The notes under the pieces were generated by a model. That model saw nothing but the letters and a program-made list of their open reading frames with translations, searched no databases and was not told the origin of the DNA. This document shows, piece by piece, positions 1-35,436 of a stretch of 64,000 nucleotides of DNA (the first letter of the stretch is position 1; every line of letters begins with the position of its first letter). This stretch comes from Haloarchaeobius amylolyticus (GTDB lineage: Archaea > Halobacteriota > Halobacteria > Halobacteriales > Natrialbaceae), in NCBI RefSeq assembly GCF_026616195.1, contig NZ_JANHDH010000001.1, forward strand, positions 1,178,001-1,242,000, written 5' to 3'. A program made the translations under genes and the position numbers.

Positions 1-76
1 AAATCTCTCGTGGTTCGTCGTCCGTCGAACCCGAGTTTCGATACGTTTTTGCCGCGTGTCACTCCACTGCACGACC

Positions 77-784
77 ATGAGCGACAGTCCACGGCGCAGC
101 CTCGCGACGAAGATCGCCGGCGAGGTGACCCTCTCGGAGGACCCCGGCGCGACGCTCCGGAAGTGGCGCACCGACTTCGGGGTGAGCCAGACCGACCTCG
201 CGGCCCACCTCGACGTCTCCTCGTCGGTCGTCTCCGACTACGAGAGCGGACGCCGCGAGAACCCCGGCATCGGGGTCGTGAGCCGCATGGTGAACGCGCT
301 GCTCGACATCGACGAGAGCCGCGGTGGCGACCACATCCGGCAGTACGCCCGCGTCCTCTCGGCCGGGTTCGAGAGCGACATCGTCCGCGACCTCCGGGAG
401 TACCCGACGACCATCCCGCTGTCGCGCTTCTACGACGCCATCGACGCCACCGAGGTCCACGCCGCCGAGGAGCGCCACATCTCGGGCCACACCGTCATCA
501 ACTCCATCGCGGCCATCACCCGGCTCTCCTCGGAGGAGTTCTACCGGCTCTACGGGCAGTCCACCTCGCGGGCGCTCATCTTCACCGAGATAACCCGCGG
601 GGAGTCCCCGCTGGTCGCGATGCGCGTCGTCACCCCGACCCCGAACGCGGTGGTCCTGCACGGTATCGAGGCCGACGAACTCTGGGAGCACGCGCCCAAG
701 CTCGCGCGTGCCGACGGCTTCTCGCTCGCGGTGACGCAGAAGCCGGCCGAGGAGATGGTCGACGCGCTGCGCGAACTCCCCTAG
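77..784 (+). CDS. XRE-type HTH transcriptional regulator (COG1709-like)
   Basis: The 235-residue protein carries an N-terminal Cro/C1-type helix-turn-helix at about residues 18-70; the recognition-helix region reads VSQTDLAAHLDVSSSVVSDYE. The remaining 160 residues form a conserved-looking domain without a motif I can name, resembling the archaeal HTH regulators of COG1709. It should bind DNA in the cytoplasm; the ligand and targets are unknown. I chose ATG 77 rather than the in-frame ATG 56, because ATG 77 gives a normal hydrophilic start (MSDSPRRS). It is convergent with the DoxX gene, 22 bp apart. The fold is secure, the role is not. Confidence 0.85.
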   Translation: MSDSPRRSLATKIAGEVTLSEDPGATLRKWRTDFGVSQTDLAAHLDVSSSVVSDYESGRRENPGIGVVSRMVNALLDIDESRGGDHIRQYARVLSAGFESDIVRDLREYPTTIPLSRFYDAIDATEVHAAEERHISGHTVINSIAAITRLSSEEFYRLYGQSTSRALIFTEITRGESPLVAMRVVTPTPNAVVLHGIEADELWEHAPKLARADGFSLAVTQKPAEEMVDALRELP

Positions 785-29799: not shown

Positions 29800-31248
29800 T
29801 CAGTCGCGGTGCAGTTCGAGCGGCTGCTGGACCGAGACGGAGTAGGGGGTCCAGCGGAGTTCGAGGACGGCCCAGACGAGCAGCGAGACGGTCCCGACGA
29901 CGAGGGCCGCGACCTCCAGCGCGCCCATCCAGATCGGTTTGACGTACATCAGGGCGTTGAACACCTTGCCCGGCAGGAGGCCCTTGAACGCGAGCCAGAG
30001 GCTCCCGAGGAGGCCGGCGCTGTCGGTGTTGCCGGTCGACCCGGCACCGTCGTCGTCGCCCGCGCCGGGACCAGCACCGCCGTCACCGGCCGAGCCGTTC
30101 GTGGCCGAGTCGTCGTCGCCGGTACTGGATTCGCCACCGATGGCCTGCATGCTCTGGCCGCCGGTACTCTCGTCACCGGTCCCGAGGCGCTCGGCCTCGT
30201 AGGGGAACGCCACGTCGACGCTCCAGACGACCTCGCCCTGCGGGTTCACCTCGAAGACCCTGTTCCCGTTGGAGTCGGTGATGAGCGTGTTCCCGTTCGG
30301 GAGGCGGTCGGCGTCGCGGGGCCACTGGGCGCGGGCGTCGCTCCACGTCCACGACCGGGTCCAGTTCCCGTCGGTCCGCTGGTACTCGACGATGCGGTTG
30401 TTCTCGGAGTCGGCGACCAGCACGGCCGGGCCGCCGTTCTCCGCCGGGATGTAGTCCGGGTTGTGCTGCTCGTAGATGGTGTCGTGGTCCCCGTCCTCGC
30501 CCAGCGTCCAGTTCTCGACGAGGCCGGTCTCGCGGTCGAGGAAGACGACCTGGTCCTGGTTGCGCAGGCTGGCCATGATCCGGCCGTCCTGGACGACCTC
30601 GACGTCGTTGACGTGGGTCCAGTCCTCCGGGTAGGGGCCGCCGCTGGTGCGCGGATAGGCGGCCTGGGCGTCCCACGACCACTCGACCAGCTCGGTGCTG
30701 GTGTTCACGACGAACACGCGGTCCTGGGCGATGTCGGCGACGACGTACCGGGTGTCGTTCAGGCGGTCGCCGTCGTGCCACCGCGTCGAGTGCTTGCCCG
30801 GCGTGACCCGGGAGTAGACGTCGGTGACGTTCCCGGTCGTGAGGTTGACGCGTTCGATACCGTTCCGGGTACAGACCGAGTCGCTGTTGCACTCCTCGGC
30901 CGGCAGGTGGTCGGCGTAGAGGTACTCGACGGTCGCGTTCGTGCCCTCGACCGGGTCGACGTCCCAGTAGCGGGTATGGGAGTCGTTGTAGTACAGCGTA
31001 CTCCCGTCTTCGGCGAACGCGACGAGCTCGGCGTTCGAGCGCGGCCCCTCCTGGGCCGAGCCGAGGAACGTGTTCGAGTCGGTCGCGATGACGGTGATTC
31101 CGTCGCGGGGCGGGGCGGCCTGGGTGTGCGAACCGGTGTCGGCGAAGTCGCTCGTCCGGTCGGCCGTGACCAGGCCGAACGTGAGCGTCAGGACGGAGAG
31201 CAGGACGACGACTCCGAGCGCGACACGGCACCCTCGTCTCGTGAGCAT
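29800..31248 (-). CDS. Arylsulfotransferase-like beta-propeller protein
   Basis: The 482-residue protein has an N-terminal signal or anchor (residues 8-28), a beta-propeller region with repeated strand patterns (VFVVNTSTELVEWSWDA, HVNDVEVVQDGRIMASLRN, HNPDYIPAENGG, PNGNTLITDSNGNRVFEV) typical of arylsulfate sulfotransferase (ASST) and NHL proteins, a Gly/Asp/Ser linker (about 365-410) and a C-terminal transmembrane helix near 440-465. ASST enzymes transfer sulfate between phenolic groups, but many archaeal homologues are untested. It is transcribed toward the GT-C-like gene 46 bp away, so the two may form an operon. Confidence 0.75.
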   Translation of the reverse strand: MLTRRGCRVALGVVVLLSVLTLTFGLVTADRTSDFADTGSHTQAAPPRDGITVIATDSNTFLGSAQEGPRSNAELVAFAEDGSTLYYNDSHTRYWDVDPVEGTNATVEYLYADHLPAEECNSDSVCTRNGIERVNLTTGNVTDVYSRVTPGKHSTRWHDGDRLNDTRYVVADIAQDRVFVVNTSTELVEWSWDAQAAYPRTSGGPYPEDWTHVNDVEVVQDGRIMASLRNQDQVVFLDRETGLVENWTLGEDGDHDTIYEQHNPDYIPAENGGPAVLVADSENNRIVEYQRTDGNWTRSWTWSDARAQWPRDADRLPNGNTLITDSNGNRVFEVNPQGEVVWSVDVAFPYEAERLGTGDESTGGQSMQAIGGESSTGDDDSATNGSAGDGGAGPGAGDDDGAGSTGNTDSAGLLGSLWLAFKGLLPGKVFNALMYVKPIWMGALEVAALVVGTVSLLVWAVLELRWTPYSVSVQQPLELHRD

Positions 31249-31412
31249 CTACCGGGACGTGGGGAGTGAGGGGGTTTACTATAGAGCCGGTAACCGCGGG
31301 ACGTGGACACACAGAAACCGTCCTGAACAGTTGGGCTCGACCGGCGGGTCCCCGTCCCGTCCCGCTTAAACCGTTCATAATAATCCCCACGCCCGGAGAA
31401 CGGGACCGACGA

Positions 31413-32732
31413 ATGGGACGCGTCTCGCGCAGCCGGCTCGTGCTCGCGCTCGCCCTCGTGGCCGCGGTCGCGGCGCTGGGTTTCGACGCCCGGCCCCGGT
31501 CGGACCCGGCCACGGAGAGCGCGAAGTCTCCGGCGGAGGTGAAGCTCCAGCCGGTCGAGGAGAACGGGTCCACCGCCCTGTGGCCCTTCACGAGCCGGGC
31601 GACGCGCTTCGAGACGCTCACGCTCCCCATCAACGTCGTCGTCCGGGAGGACCCGGCGGTCGTCCGGGCGATGCTGACGCGCGAGGCGACCGACGGCTCG
31701 GGCTCGCTCGACCGCGACGGCGAACAGCGCGTGCTGCCCGACCTCGGCGGCGACGTGTGGGGCCGGACCCACGGCGCGACCCGCTACACCTACGTCCACG
31801 ACCGGCGCACCGACGAGGGGTCCTGGCAGACCGAGTACGCCCAGTTGCACGTCGGGACCTACCTCGGCAGCCGCCAGCACGTCCGGCTGTACGCCGTCCC
31901 CGGCGAGGACGGGCGAGCGACCGCGATCCAGGCCCACCGCGAGCACTGGGACTGGTTCCGCCTGCGCCACACCGTGGGGAGCACGGCCGCGGGCCAGACC
32001 TACCTCGAACGCCAGTTCTACGGCGTCCCCACCGTCGAGGAGGTGAGCCGCGAGCGCTACGCGAACGGGGGCATCCTCGACGCCGACGGCTGGGCGACGG
32101 TGGTCGACGTCCGCGAGCGACCGGCGCTGCCGCCCGAGGGCGTCGGCGGCGGCAGTACGCCCGCGAGCCTCGTGATGGCGGCTGCGACGCTCGGCGGCCT
32201 GGTCGCCATCGCCGGCGGGTTCGCCGAGGACGAGATCGACGAGGTGCGCCGGGAGGCCGCCGACGCCCTCGCCGAGTTCCGGTCGGACCTCGACGTGACG
32301 CGGGGACACCTCCTGCTGTTCGGGAGCCTCGCGACCATCCCGGTCGCCGTCCGCGCCGGGAGCGTCGCCGTCGAACGCCTCGGCGTCGTGGCGAACCCGA
32401 AGCTCGTCGCGGCCGTCTTCTACCCCCTGCTCGTCTGCGGCCTGCCCCTCTGTGCGTATCGCTTCGCGACCCGGCTCGGGTTCGCCGAGAGCGCCCTCGT
32501 CGCCGTCCTCGGGCTCCTGACCGGCGTCGTCGCGGAGTACACCTACCTCGGCATCGAGGTCATCCCGCGGTACGTGCTCGTCCAGCGCGCCCTCCTGCTC
32601 GGTGCCATCGCCGTCGTCGCCGCCGCCGGGACCGTCCGGCACGAGCGGCGGTGGCGCGAGAACGAACTCCTCGCCCTCGGCGTCGCCTGCTGGGCCATCG
32701 CCGTGGCGTGGCCCCTGCTCGACCTCCTCTGA
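31413..32732 (+). CDS. Membrane protein with possible LssY_C-like domain
   Basis: The 439-residue protein has an N-terminal anchor (8-24), a large extracytoplasmic domain to about residue 245, a helix at 248-268, a charged cytosolic loop and about five more helices to the end. The outer domain (LPINVVV, QLHVGTYLGSRQHVRLY, AIQAHREHWDWFRLRHTV) resembles the LssY C-terminal domain that is often linked to PAP2 phosphatases; this is a tentative resemblance. The PAP2 gene two places downstream supports it. The next gene starts four bases after its stop. It diverges from the ASST-like gene. Confidence 0.65.
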   Translation: MGRVSRSRLVLALALVAAVAALGFDARPRSDPATESAKSPAEVKLQPVEENGSTALWPFTSRATRFETLTLPINVVVREDPAVVRAMLTREATDGSGSLDRDGEQRVLPDLGGDVWGRTHGATRYTYVHDRRTDEGSWQTEYAQLHVGTYLGSRQHVRLYAVPGEDGRATAIQAHREHWDWFRLRHTVGSTAAGQTYLERQFYGVPTVEEVSRERYANGGILDADGWATVVDVRERPALPPEGVGGGSTPASLVMAAATLGGLVAIAGGFAEDEIDEVRREAADALAEFRSDLDVTRGHLLLFGSLATIPVAVRAGSVAVERLGVVANPKLVAAVFYPLLVCGLPLCAYRFATRLGFAESALVAVLGLLTGVVAEYTYLGIEVIPRYVLVQRALLLGAIAVVAAAGTVRHERRWRENELLALGVACWAIAVAWPLLDLL

Positions 32733-32736
32733 GACC

Positions 32737-34614
32737 ATGACAGACCCGCCCGACCCGCCTCCGACAGCCGAATCGACACGCGACCAGGACCACCCCCGCG
32801 AGACGCGGCCGACCCTCGACCGCCGGACGCTACTCGGCGGGCTGGCGAGCGCCGGCATGGCCGCGACAGCCGGCTGTGCGAAGAAGGCCCACTCGATGCT
32901 GAACCGACCGACGCCCGAGCAGGTGTCGCTCTCGGTGAAGACCGTCCCCGCCGACGACGACCCGGTCGCGACCCGCATCGCGCGCTACCTCGTGACCAGA
33001 CTCCAGCAGGTCGGCATCGACGCGTCGGTGCAGCTGCTCCGGCGCGAGGACCTCCTCATCGACGTGCTGTTCAAGCAGTCGTTCGACCTGTACGTGTGGC
33101 GCCTGCCCGACCTGTCAGACCCCGACCGGCTCCGGTCGCTGCTGCACTCCCGGTTCGCGGTCGAGCCGGGCTGGCAGAACCCGTTCGGGTACGCCAACCT
33201 CGGCGTCGACGACCTGCTGACCCGCCAGCGCCGGCTGCCCGGGTCGCGCCGCCAGCGCGTCCTCGCGACGCTCCAGCGGCAGGTCGCCCGGACGCTCCCG
33301 TTCGTCACCATCGCGTTCCCGAGCGAGGTCCGGGCGGTCCGGAACGACGCGGTCGCCCACGTCGGGGACCCCTCGCTCCACTCGCCGCTGAGTTACTGTC
33401 GCCTCGACGCGACCGACCCCGACGCGACGACCGGCGCGGCCGAACCGGAGACCACGACCGAGTCCGACCGGCGGACGCTGACCGCGACGCTCAGCGACGC
33501 GCGCCAGACCGAGAGTCTGAACCCCCTCGCGACGGAGTACCGCGACGACTGGACCATCCCGGAACTGCTGTACGACCCGCTCGCGCGGGCCGTCGGCGGT
33601 CGGCTCCGGCCGTGGCTGGCCCGGTACGTCGACTGGCACAGCGACGCGGGCGACGGCGGCCCGGTCGCGACGCTGACCCTCCGCGAGGGCTGCACCTGGC
33701 ACGACGGTACCCCGGTCACGGCCGACGACGTGGCGTTCACCTACCGCTTCCTCTCGGACACCTCGCTCGGTAGGATGGAGAGCCCGCTCCCCGCGCCGGC
33801 GTTCCGCGGCCGGACGACGCTCGTCGACTCGGCGATGCCGCTGGACGACCGGCGCGTCCGCCTCTCGTTCGTGCCGGCCAGCCGGCGGGTCGCCCGCCGG
33901 GCACTGACCGTGCCCATCCTGCCCCGGCACGACTGGGAGGACAGCAGCGAGCAGGCGAACGTCCCCGGCGTGCAGAACGGCCCGGTGACCAGGGCGCTCG
34001 TCCGGGACAACTTCCCCCCGGTCGGGAGCGGCCCGCTGCGCTACGAGTCCCGGAAGATCCGGAACTCCCTGACGCTGGTCCGCAACGACGAGCACTTCCT
34101 CCACCGCGGGGACACCGGCGGCCTGCCGACCGCGGTCGACGGCTTCGACGTGGACGCGCTCCGGTTCCGGGTGGTCCCGTCGGGCGCCGTCGCCCGCGAC
34201 CTCGTCCTCGACGGCGAGGCCGACCTCTCGGCCAGTCCCCTCTCGCCCGACGCGGTCCGGCCGGTCGGCGAGTCGAACGAGGTCACCCTGCACGTCCAGG
34301 AGTCGCACTCGCCGTACCACGTCGGGTTCGACGTCCGGTCCGCGCCGCTCAGCAACGGCCGGTTCCGGCAGGCCGTCGCCCAGCTGCTCGACCGTACGCA
34401 CATCGTCGACGAGTTCCTCGACGAGTTCGCCCGCCCCGCGGTGAGCCCGCTGGCGGCGACCGGGAGCGTCCCGGCGAAACTGCAGTGGTCGGGCGAGGAC
34501 CCGCTGTTCCCGTTCCCCGGGTCGGACGGCGAACTGGCCGTCGACCGCGCGAGACAGGCGTTCGTCGACGCCGGGTACCGCTACAGCGACGACGGCGAAC
34601 TCCTCGCACGATGA
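32737..34614 (+). CDS. Solute-binding lipoprotein, family 5-like, apparently circularly permuted
   Basis: The 625-residue protein has a Tat signal with lipobox (DRRTLLGGL, ATAGC, Cys47), so it is a lipid-anchored exported protein. Two parts resemble peptide/nickel-binding proteins (SBP family 5). Residues about 246-625 match the normal N-terminal lobe, with CTWHDGTPVTADDVAFTYRF (320-338), FRQAVAQLLDRTHIVDEF (543-560) and a final DRARQAFVDAGYRYSDDG. The normal C-terminal lobe, which should follow, is instead at residues 62-222 (VATRIARYLVTRLQQVGIDA, SFDLYVWRLPDLSDP, NPFGYANLGVDDLL). No permease or ATPase gene is nearby. Ligand unknown. Confidence 0.75.
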   Translation: MTDPPDPPPTAESTRDQDHPRETRPTLDRRTLLGGLASAGMAATAGCAKKAHSMLNRPTPEQVSLSVKTVPADDDPVATRIARYLVTRLQQVGIDASVQLLRREDLLIDVLFKQSFDLYVWRLPDLSDPDRLRSLLHSRFAVEPGWQNPFGYANLGVDDLLTRQRRLPGSRRQRVLATLQRQVARTLPFVTIAFPSEVRAVRNDAVAHVGDPSLHSPLSYCRLDATDPDATTGAAEPETTTESDRRTLTATLSDARQTESLNPLATEYRDDWTIPELLYDPLARAVGGRLRPWLARYVDWHSDAGDGGPVATLTLREGCTWHDGTPVTADDVAFTYRFLSDTSLGRMESPLPAPAFRGRTTLVDSAMPLDDRRVRLSFVPASRRVARRALTVPILPRHDWEDSSEQANVPGVQNGPVTRALVRDNFPPVGSGPLRYESRKIRNSLTLVRNDEHFLHRGDTGGLPTAVDGFDVDALRFRVVPSGAVARDLVLDGEADLSASPLSPDAVRPVGESNEVTLHVQESHSPYHVGFDVRSAPLSNGRFRQAVAQLLDRTHIVDEFLDEFARPAVSPLAATGSVPAKLQWSGEDPLFPFPGSDGELAVDRARQAFVDAGYRYSDDGELLAR

Positions 34615-34635: not shown

Positions 34636-35436
34636 ATGGGCGTCGTCGCCGTCGCCAGCAGCGTCCTCGTCATCGACCTGCTGCTGTTCACCGTCGCCGG
34701 CGTCGTGCTGTTCGACCGGCCCGCACTGGCCCGTGCCCGCGGCCACATCGGGTCGCGCCTGCGCGAGGTCGTCCCCTACGTCGTCGTCCTGGGCGGGGTC
34801 CTGCTGGTCAACCGGGTCGCCCGCGAGGCGGGGCCGGACCTCTCGTACGTCATCGGCTGGAACCTCACCGACGAGCTGTACGCCATCGAGGGGACGCTGG
34901 TCGCGACCATCCAGACCGTCCAGCATCCCCTCCTGACCCGGTACTTCTCGTTCATCTACCTGCCGGGCTACGTCTTCCTTCTGACGTTCCCGCCCGTGCT
35001 GTACGTCGTCGCCCGGGACCCCCGCCCCCTGAAGGAGACGATACTGACGTTCACGCTGAACTACTCGCTCGGGCTGGTGTGTTACATCCTGTTCATTTCA
35101 TACGGCCCGCGGAACCTGCTCCCCGAGGCCGTCGAGCCCCTGCTCTACTCGACCTACCCCGACACGCAGGTCCTCACCGGCGAGGTGAACTCGAACTCGA
35201 ACGTGTTCCCGTCGCTGCACGCCTCGCTGTCGGTGTCGGCCGCGACGCTGGCGGTCCGGCACCACGACGCCTACCCGAAGTGGACGCCCATCGCGGTCTG
35301 GGGGGCCGCCAGCGTCTGTCTCGCGACGATGTACCTCGGCATCCACTGGGCGACCGACGTGGCGGCCGGTATCGTGCTCGGCGTCGGGAGCGTGTGGCTG
35401 GCGGGGCGGGTGGTCGACTGGGAGGAGCGTCGTTAG
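34636..35436 (+). CDS. PAP2-family membrane phosphatase
   Basis: The 266-residue protein has six or seven membrane helices and the second and third PAP2 phosphatase motifs: FPSLHAS (about 191-197) and YLGIHWATD (about 214-222), with the catalytic His pair. A first motif (KxxxxxxRP) is not clear, but ARDPRPLKET may fill the role. The family dephosphorylates lipid phosphates such as undecaprenyl- or dolichyl-type carriers or phosphatidic acid. It starts 21 bases after the solute-binding gene; the last four bases overlap the convergent lipoprotein gene. Confidence 0.85.
   Translation: MGVVAVASSVLVIDLLLFTVAGVVLFDRPALARARGHIGSRLREVVPYVVVLGGVLLVNRVAREAGPDLSYVIGWNLTDELYAIEGTLVATIQTVQHPLLTRYFSFIYLPGYVFLLTFPPVLYVVARDPRPLKETILTFTLNYSLGLVCYILFISYGPRNLLPEAVEPLLYSTYPDTQVLTGEVNSNSNVFPSLHASLSVSAATLAVRHHDAYPKWTPIAVWGAASVCLATMYLGIHWATDVAAGIVLGVGSVWLAGRVVDWEERR

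Follow-up and report, generated by a model that had tools for sequence, protein, structure and literature searches.

The window, that is, the whole 64,000-nucleotide stretch of DNA analyzed here, encodes a protein related to the family-5 solute-binding proteins, a large and well-studied class, whose chain stops where ordinary family-5 proteins go on. The locus raises the question of where the missing part is to be found, and what a protein built in this way does. The preliminary description had read it as a circular permutant with its lobes in swapped order, with a C-lobe-like part at residues 62–222 and a chain that ends exactly where the C-lobe should begin. The open reading frame starts with an ATG at 32737 and stops with a TGA at 34612–34614, and the signal and lipobox residues R29, R30, G46, and C47 show no variation among 28 aligned relatives. 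The features of the locus are collected in Table 1.

Table 1. Features of the binding-protein locus (positions are those of the window)
Feature	Position	Strand	Basis
Aryl-sulfate sulfotransferase-like protein	29800..31248	-	Pfam PF05935/PF14269
Conserved hypothetical protein, membrane helices at its C-terminus; gene lies 4 bases ahead of the binding-protein gene	31266..32732	+	Homologs in 7/28 clade-A loci
Family-5 solute-binding lipoprotein, 625 aa, almost certainly circularly permuted	32737..34614	+	Open reading frame; relatives collinear over nearly full length
Tat-type signal and lipobox (RR...AGC), predicted lipidated Cys47	32815..32877	+	Sequence
N-terminal segment, residues 60-228, equivalent to the second C-lobe half and chain end of ordinary family-5 proteins	32914..33420	+	hhalign
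Variable linker from ancestral C-terminus to ancestral N-terminus	33421..33465	+	Gappy alignment columns, low pLDDT
C-terminal segment, residues 244-625, equivalent to the N-lobe and first C-lobe half, ending in DAGYRYSDDGELLAR	33466..34611	+	hhalign, structure match
PAP2_3-family membrane enzyme, conserved partner gene	34636..35436	+	Pfam PF14378, E 4e-17

Order of the segments in the binding protein

Relatives of the protein were aligned, the alignment was split at the linker, and each part was compared by profile-profile alignment (hhalign) with ordinary family-5 proteins, for which eight such proteins of the same genome served as templates. Residues 240–625 aligned with template columns 78–405 (E = 5e-37) and residues 60–228 with columns 407–552 (E = 4e-8); the two segments therefore meet at 405/407 and tile the template in reversed order. 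When the halves were rearranged in silico to the ancestral order, they gave a single 460-column alignment (E = 5e-43). Searching the halves separately, as the preliminary description had advised, thus placed them on the C- and N-parts of one template with the order reversed, and the possibility that the N-terminal part would align to nothing in the C-lobe did not materialize. The C-lobe homology that it had assigned to residues 62–222 holds, with the range shifted to about 60–228.

Profile searches gave a similar picture. The Pfam match to SBP_bac_5 (PF00496) scored 129 bits, above the curated cut-off of 32.4, and placed residues 290–621 on about positions 2–286 of the 368 positions of the profile, indicating that the profile's final fifth is absent from its usual place. 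In several relatives, profile positions 2–287 were matched and positions 287–363 were found upstream in the same frame. Together with the hhalign results, both halves of the SBP_bac_5 profile are present, but in reversed order, so we regard the protein as a permuted derivative of the family and not as a standard member. A search of NCBIfam returned no family above cut-off for the window protein. The profile of the N-terminal segment alone matched solved family-5 proteins in their C-terminal region (for example, 5u4o 371–499; E = 2.6e-6), and a Nitratireductor relative aligned with solved CtaP (5isu) through residues 211–523 on 27–337 and residues 50–173 on 359–477. Sequence identity between the N-terminal part and ordinary C-lobes is low, at about 20%. 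Among PDB chains, none with both halves in the permuted order was found, a search in which a weak match could be missed.

Predicted structures were examined for the full protein (pLDDT 76.7; pTM 0.77) and for the N-terminal segment folded alone (pLDDT 79; pTM 0.60). In the full model, residues about 243–625 match family-5 structures (e.g., 1xoc 17..356, Z 20.5) and the linker has low pLDDT at residues 230–244, where the alignment of relatives is gappy as well. The model of the N-terminal segment matches the rest of the same template (1xoc 356..520, Z 8.9). The structure matches listed for both models are family-5 (cluster C) proteins, those listed for the N-terminal segment in the same region, and Foldseek gave no match below E 0.001 for that segment. 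No cluster B chain is among the listed matches, an absence that carries no weight. Since the Z of 8.9 is modest and Foldseek adds no match, the smaller half draws its structural support from consistency. The cut is equivalent to about residues 356–361 of OppA (OppA 1..361 for the full model; 356..486 for the N-terminal segment), which lies inside lobe III. The new termini are inside the C-lobe, so the lobes have not been exchanged as blocks and the C-lobe is built from both segments. The initial wording of swapped lobes is therefore imprecise, and the end of the chain falls midway through the C-lobe instead of at its start. We had also considered whether the protein has lost the Asp to which the peptide amino group binds in DppA/OppA, but alignment in that region is not reliable enough for such a claim.

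A chain that stops early could also come from an ordinary protein whose C-terminal end was altered by a frameshift, a truncation, or an error of assembly. The probability of such an artifact is practically nil, since 28 aligned relatives share the same C-terminal end position, the missing half is found at the N-terminus in reversed tiling, and the best 80 named relatives, all haloarchaeal, are permuted without exception (80/80), with a PAP2 gene downstream in 79. Full-length relatives occur in 119 of the host family's 125 genomes, covering all 29 genera, and their alignment shows a conserved C-terminal pattern, AARxAFExAGFRYDxDGxL. A second C-lobe downstream, which the preliminary description had named as a finding that would overturn its claim, is not there; the PAP2 gene begins 22 bases on. 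Partial profile matches in two genomes (G044 and G045) had looked like unpermuted copies; these were rejected, as both are permuted with an insertion. Taken over the profile alignments, the two predicted structures, and the conservation across many relatives, the proposed circular permutation is borne out and the window protein is almost certainly a genuine family-5 circular permutant. Separately, genome G155 encodes an unusually long family-5 protein (L175:1-2379; about 830 aa) with its N-part before its C-part, possibly a third permuted type.

Permuted relatives beside ABC permeases and the origin of the permutation

Scans with two-part HMMs revealed a second, divergent permuted set in haloarchaea (clade B), a sister group to the branch of the window protein (clade A). 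The two clades aligned end to end (E = 4e-80), and clade B, too, matched ordinary proteins with its segments reversed (E = 6e-48 and 1e-13). Permease genes were present in 19/21 clade-B loci and PAP2 genes in 0/21; three clade-B loci scanned with Pfam contained BPD_transp_1 permeases (two genes), with oligo_HPY ATPases in two of the three. Collinear relatives were also found in Alphaproteobacteria (tblastn on plasmids), and the four examined had the permuted order (L192, L193, L195, and L196, from Nitratireductor, Ketogulonicigenium, Roseomonas, and Microvirga). The three annotated genes among them (Nitratireductor, Ketogulonicigenium, and Roseomonas) are followed by ABC permease genes. M20/M28 peptidase or hydantoinase genes were seen near the Ketogulonicigenium and Roseomonas genes. 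With these HMMs, the halves were found in the ordinary order at three further loci from Halobacteriota, as in ordinary proteins. An ordinary-order haloarchaeal protein (L162) was the top ordinary scorer against the sister-group profile and is a candidate for the nearest unpermuted relative.

We built a tree after restoring the ancestral order of the segments in each permuted sequence. In this tree, one branch separates all permuted rows (UFBoot 85/SH-aLRT 99), and clade A is supported at 100/100. Trees from each half alone were weak; the permuted rows cluster in both, and two to three order changes are needed, so that a single origin is favored, not proven. We consider it likely that one old permutation event gave rise to the haloarchaeal and alphaproteobacterial groups. 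Such an event would have happened once, in a binding protein of an ABC importer, with permease-linked descendants surviving in haloarchaea and Alphaproteobacteria. The N-terminal segment might alternatively be a C-lobe fragment acquired independently from another binding-protein gene by domain fusion and truncation, an alternative of the kind that the authors of the TpMglB-2 study raise for their own protein (PMC4990184) and with which the low identity to ordinary C-lobes and the weak half-trees are compatible. Against this, the two parts cover a single template with no overlap and the permuted rows cluster in the trees of both halves separately, and we hold such a fusion to be quite improbable; it would yield a permuted fold anyway.

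The PAP2 gene and other neighbors

Enzymes of the PAP2_3 family include phosphatases and transferases. The PAP2 partners keep the motifs GPRN, FPSLH, and HxxxD; among 39 of their sequences H195, H237, and D241 do not vary, and the partner gene in the window has the catalytic His/His/Asp motifs of PAP2_3. In clade A the PAP2 gene usually overlaps the binding-protein gene or lies within a few bases of it. The two genes are also adjacent in Halobaculum, Haladaptatus, Haloarcula, Natronorubrum, and Haloferax gibbonsii, overlapping by a few bases in the last three, and Natronorubrum has two tandem pairs. Among clade-A loci of at least 8 kb, PAP2 was present in 26/28 and dppB or dppC in 0/28; one of the 80 best named loci had a match to the dppB profile. 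In a check of 25 genomes, 22/25 clade-A genes adjoined one of 26 strong PAP2 matches.

The pairing extends to whole genomes. Profiles for the binding protein and for PAP2 were run over 293 genomes of the order and the resulting sets were compared by eye: the former was found in 173 and the latter in 171, with identical presence or absence in 291/293, a count over genomes that share ancestry. A Fisher value disregards this ancestry and is given no weight as a sign of independence. The two mismatches are a genome in which the binding protein lies at a contig end (G138) and one whose match is a sister-group protein (G284). Within the window's genus, both genes occur in G000 and G005, and neither the binding protein nor a close PAP2 relative in G001–G004, indicating joint gain or joint loss of the two genes among its species. 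The few clade-A copies without PAP2 are those at L119 and L123 and second tandem copies. Tandem pairs or arrays of binding protein, PAP2, and binding protein were observed at L073, L062, and L063, the last copy at L062 and L063 being without PAP2. No fusion of the two genes was seen among the loci examined.

Other genes distinguish the surroundings of the two clades. Arylsulfotransferase-like genes were found in 11/28 clade-A loci vs. 0/16 clade-B loci, a PMT_2-type glycosyltransferase-like gene in 12/28 vs. 0/16, and homologs of the window's upstream hypothetical gene in 7/28 vs. 0/16. A YdjM-family membrane gene lies near the PAP2-less clade-A genes at L119 (5135–5629) and L123, and its product is a possible substitute partner where PAP2 is missing. 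These neighbors (sulfotransferase, PMT_2-type glycosyltransferase, and YdjM) point to the cell envelope.

Possible role and comparison with known systems

The explanation that we favor, with some confidence, is that a permuted family-5 protein, ancestrally a subunit of an ABC importer, has been re-used as the extracellular ligand-binding partner of a PAP2 enzyme. In this arrangement the tethered protein would capture an extracellular ligand, either a solute or a lipid head group, and present it to, or gate, the PAP2 enzyme, which would act on a membrane lipid or a lipid-linked glycan by transferring or removing phosphate, thereby modifying the envelope; the clade-A protein would then not be an importer subunit. 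For the partner function of the clade-A protein taken by itself, we infer a chance slightly better than even. The permutation shifts the tether from the N-lobe to the C-lobe, which may suit a membrane-enzyme partner. It appears to be older than the PAP2 partnership, so the partnership does not explain it. The broader proposition, that the permuted class, which could be named "cluster Cc", spans haloarchaea and Alphaproteobacteria and that one haloarchaeal branch has abandoned ABC transport and now serves, obligately and outside the cell, as the ligand-binding subunit of a phosphotransferase of PAP2 type acting on lipids or lipid-glycans, is evenly balanced.

The clade-A protein could still be an importer subunit whose permease is encoded elsewhere, with PAP2 acting extracellularly on that same nutrient, for instance by dephosphorylating it ahead of uptake. 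Its sister group is ABC-linked, orphan binding proteins are generally known to share permeases, and it could be served by a permease encoded at another locus. Among linked genes, however, an adjacent permease was found in 0/28 clade-A loci vs. 19/21 clade-B loci, the former spanning at least 8 kb, and the near-perfect genome-level co-occurrence with PAP2 and the neighboring envelope enzymes also speak against import, which we therefore judge unlikely. The PAP2 partner, the missing ABC permease, and the ABC-linked sister group were all absent from the preliminary description.

Compared with ordinary SBP_bac_5 proteins (PF00496, cluster C: OppA, DppA, AppA, NikA/NikZ, and CtaP), the window branch is alike in fold, in the sequence of both halves, and in the lipobox, and its sister group occurs in Dpp/Opp-type operons; it differs in its reversed segments, in having no adjacent permease, and in its PAP2 partner. 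The preliminary description knew of no described permuted member, and we likewise found no description of a permuted family-5 protein in the PDB structures searched or in the literature, where few subscription journals were reached; a literature search of the same reach gave nothing relevant on PAP2 with a binding protein in haloarchaea. The permuted class thus appears to be widespread and undescribed, and profile annotation reports it as ordinary family 5. Chain ends placed within the C-lobe, and a tether attached to the opposite lobe, are compatible with the family-5 fold, a point of relevance to the design of biosensors and to how tethered binding proteins dock. The PAP2 pairing offers a testable case of a membrane enzyme re-using a binding protein, in a setting, haloarchaeal lipid and glycan head-group chemistry, that is poorly mapped.

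The nearest precedent is TpMglB-2 (Tp0684) from Treponema pallidum, a cluster B permutant published as "Type Ic/Cluster Bc" (PMC4990184). Like the window protein, it is a natural circularly permuted, membrane-tethered ABC-type binding protein; it has the cluster B (glucose/galactose) fold, next to the cluster C matches listed for the window protein, and it is cut elsewhere, with three N-lobe sheet strands moved near the C-terminus. On the enzyme side, the partner shares FPSLH and HxxxD with its family, PAP2_3 (PF14378) and inositol phosphorylceramide synthase-like enzymes, for which no family-5 binding partner is described in the searchable literature. By analogy, the clade-A protein would work like LpqW, without being LpqW, a mycobacterial lipoprotein with a family-5-like region that channels or regulates membrane lipid-glycan synthesis (PMC3229680). 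LpqW (PDB 2grv) matches the profile of the N-terminal segment (E = 1.5e-5), but with the matched segment in its ordinary place, at 407–482, and it is reported with PimE and lipomannan synthesis instead of PAP2.
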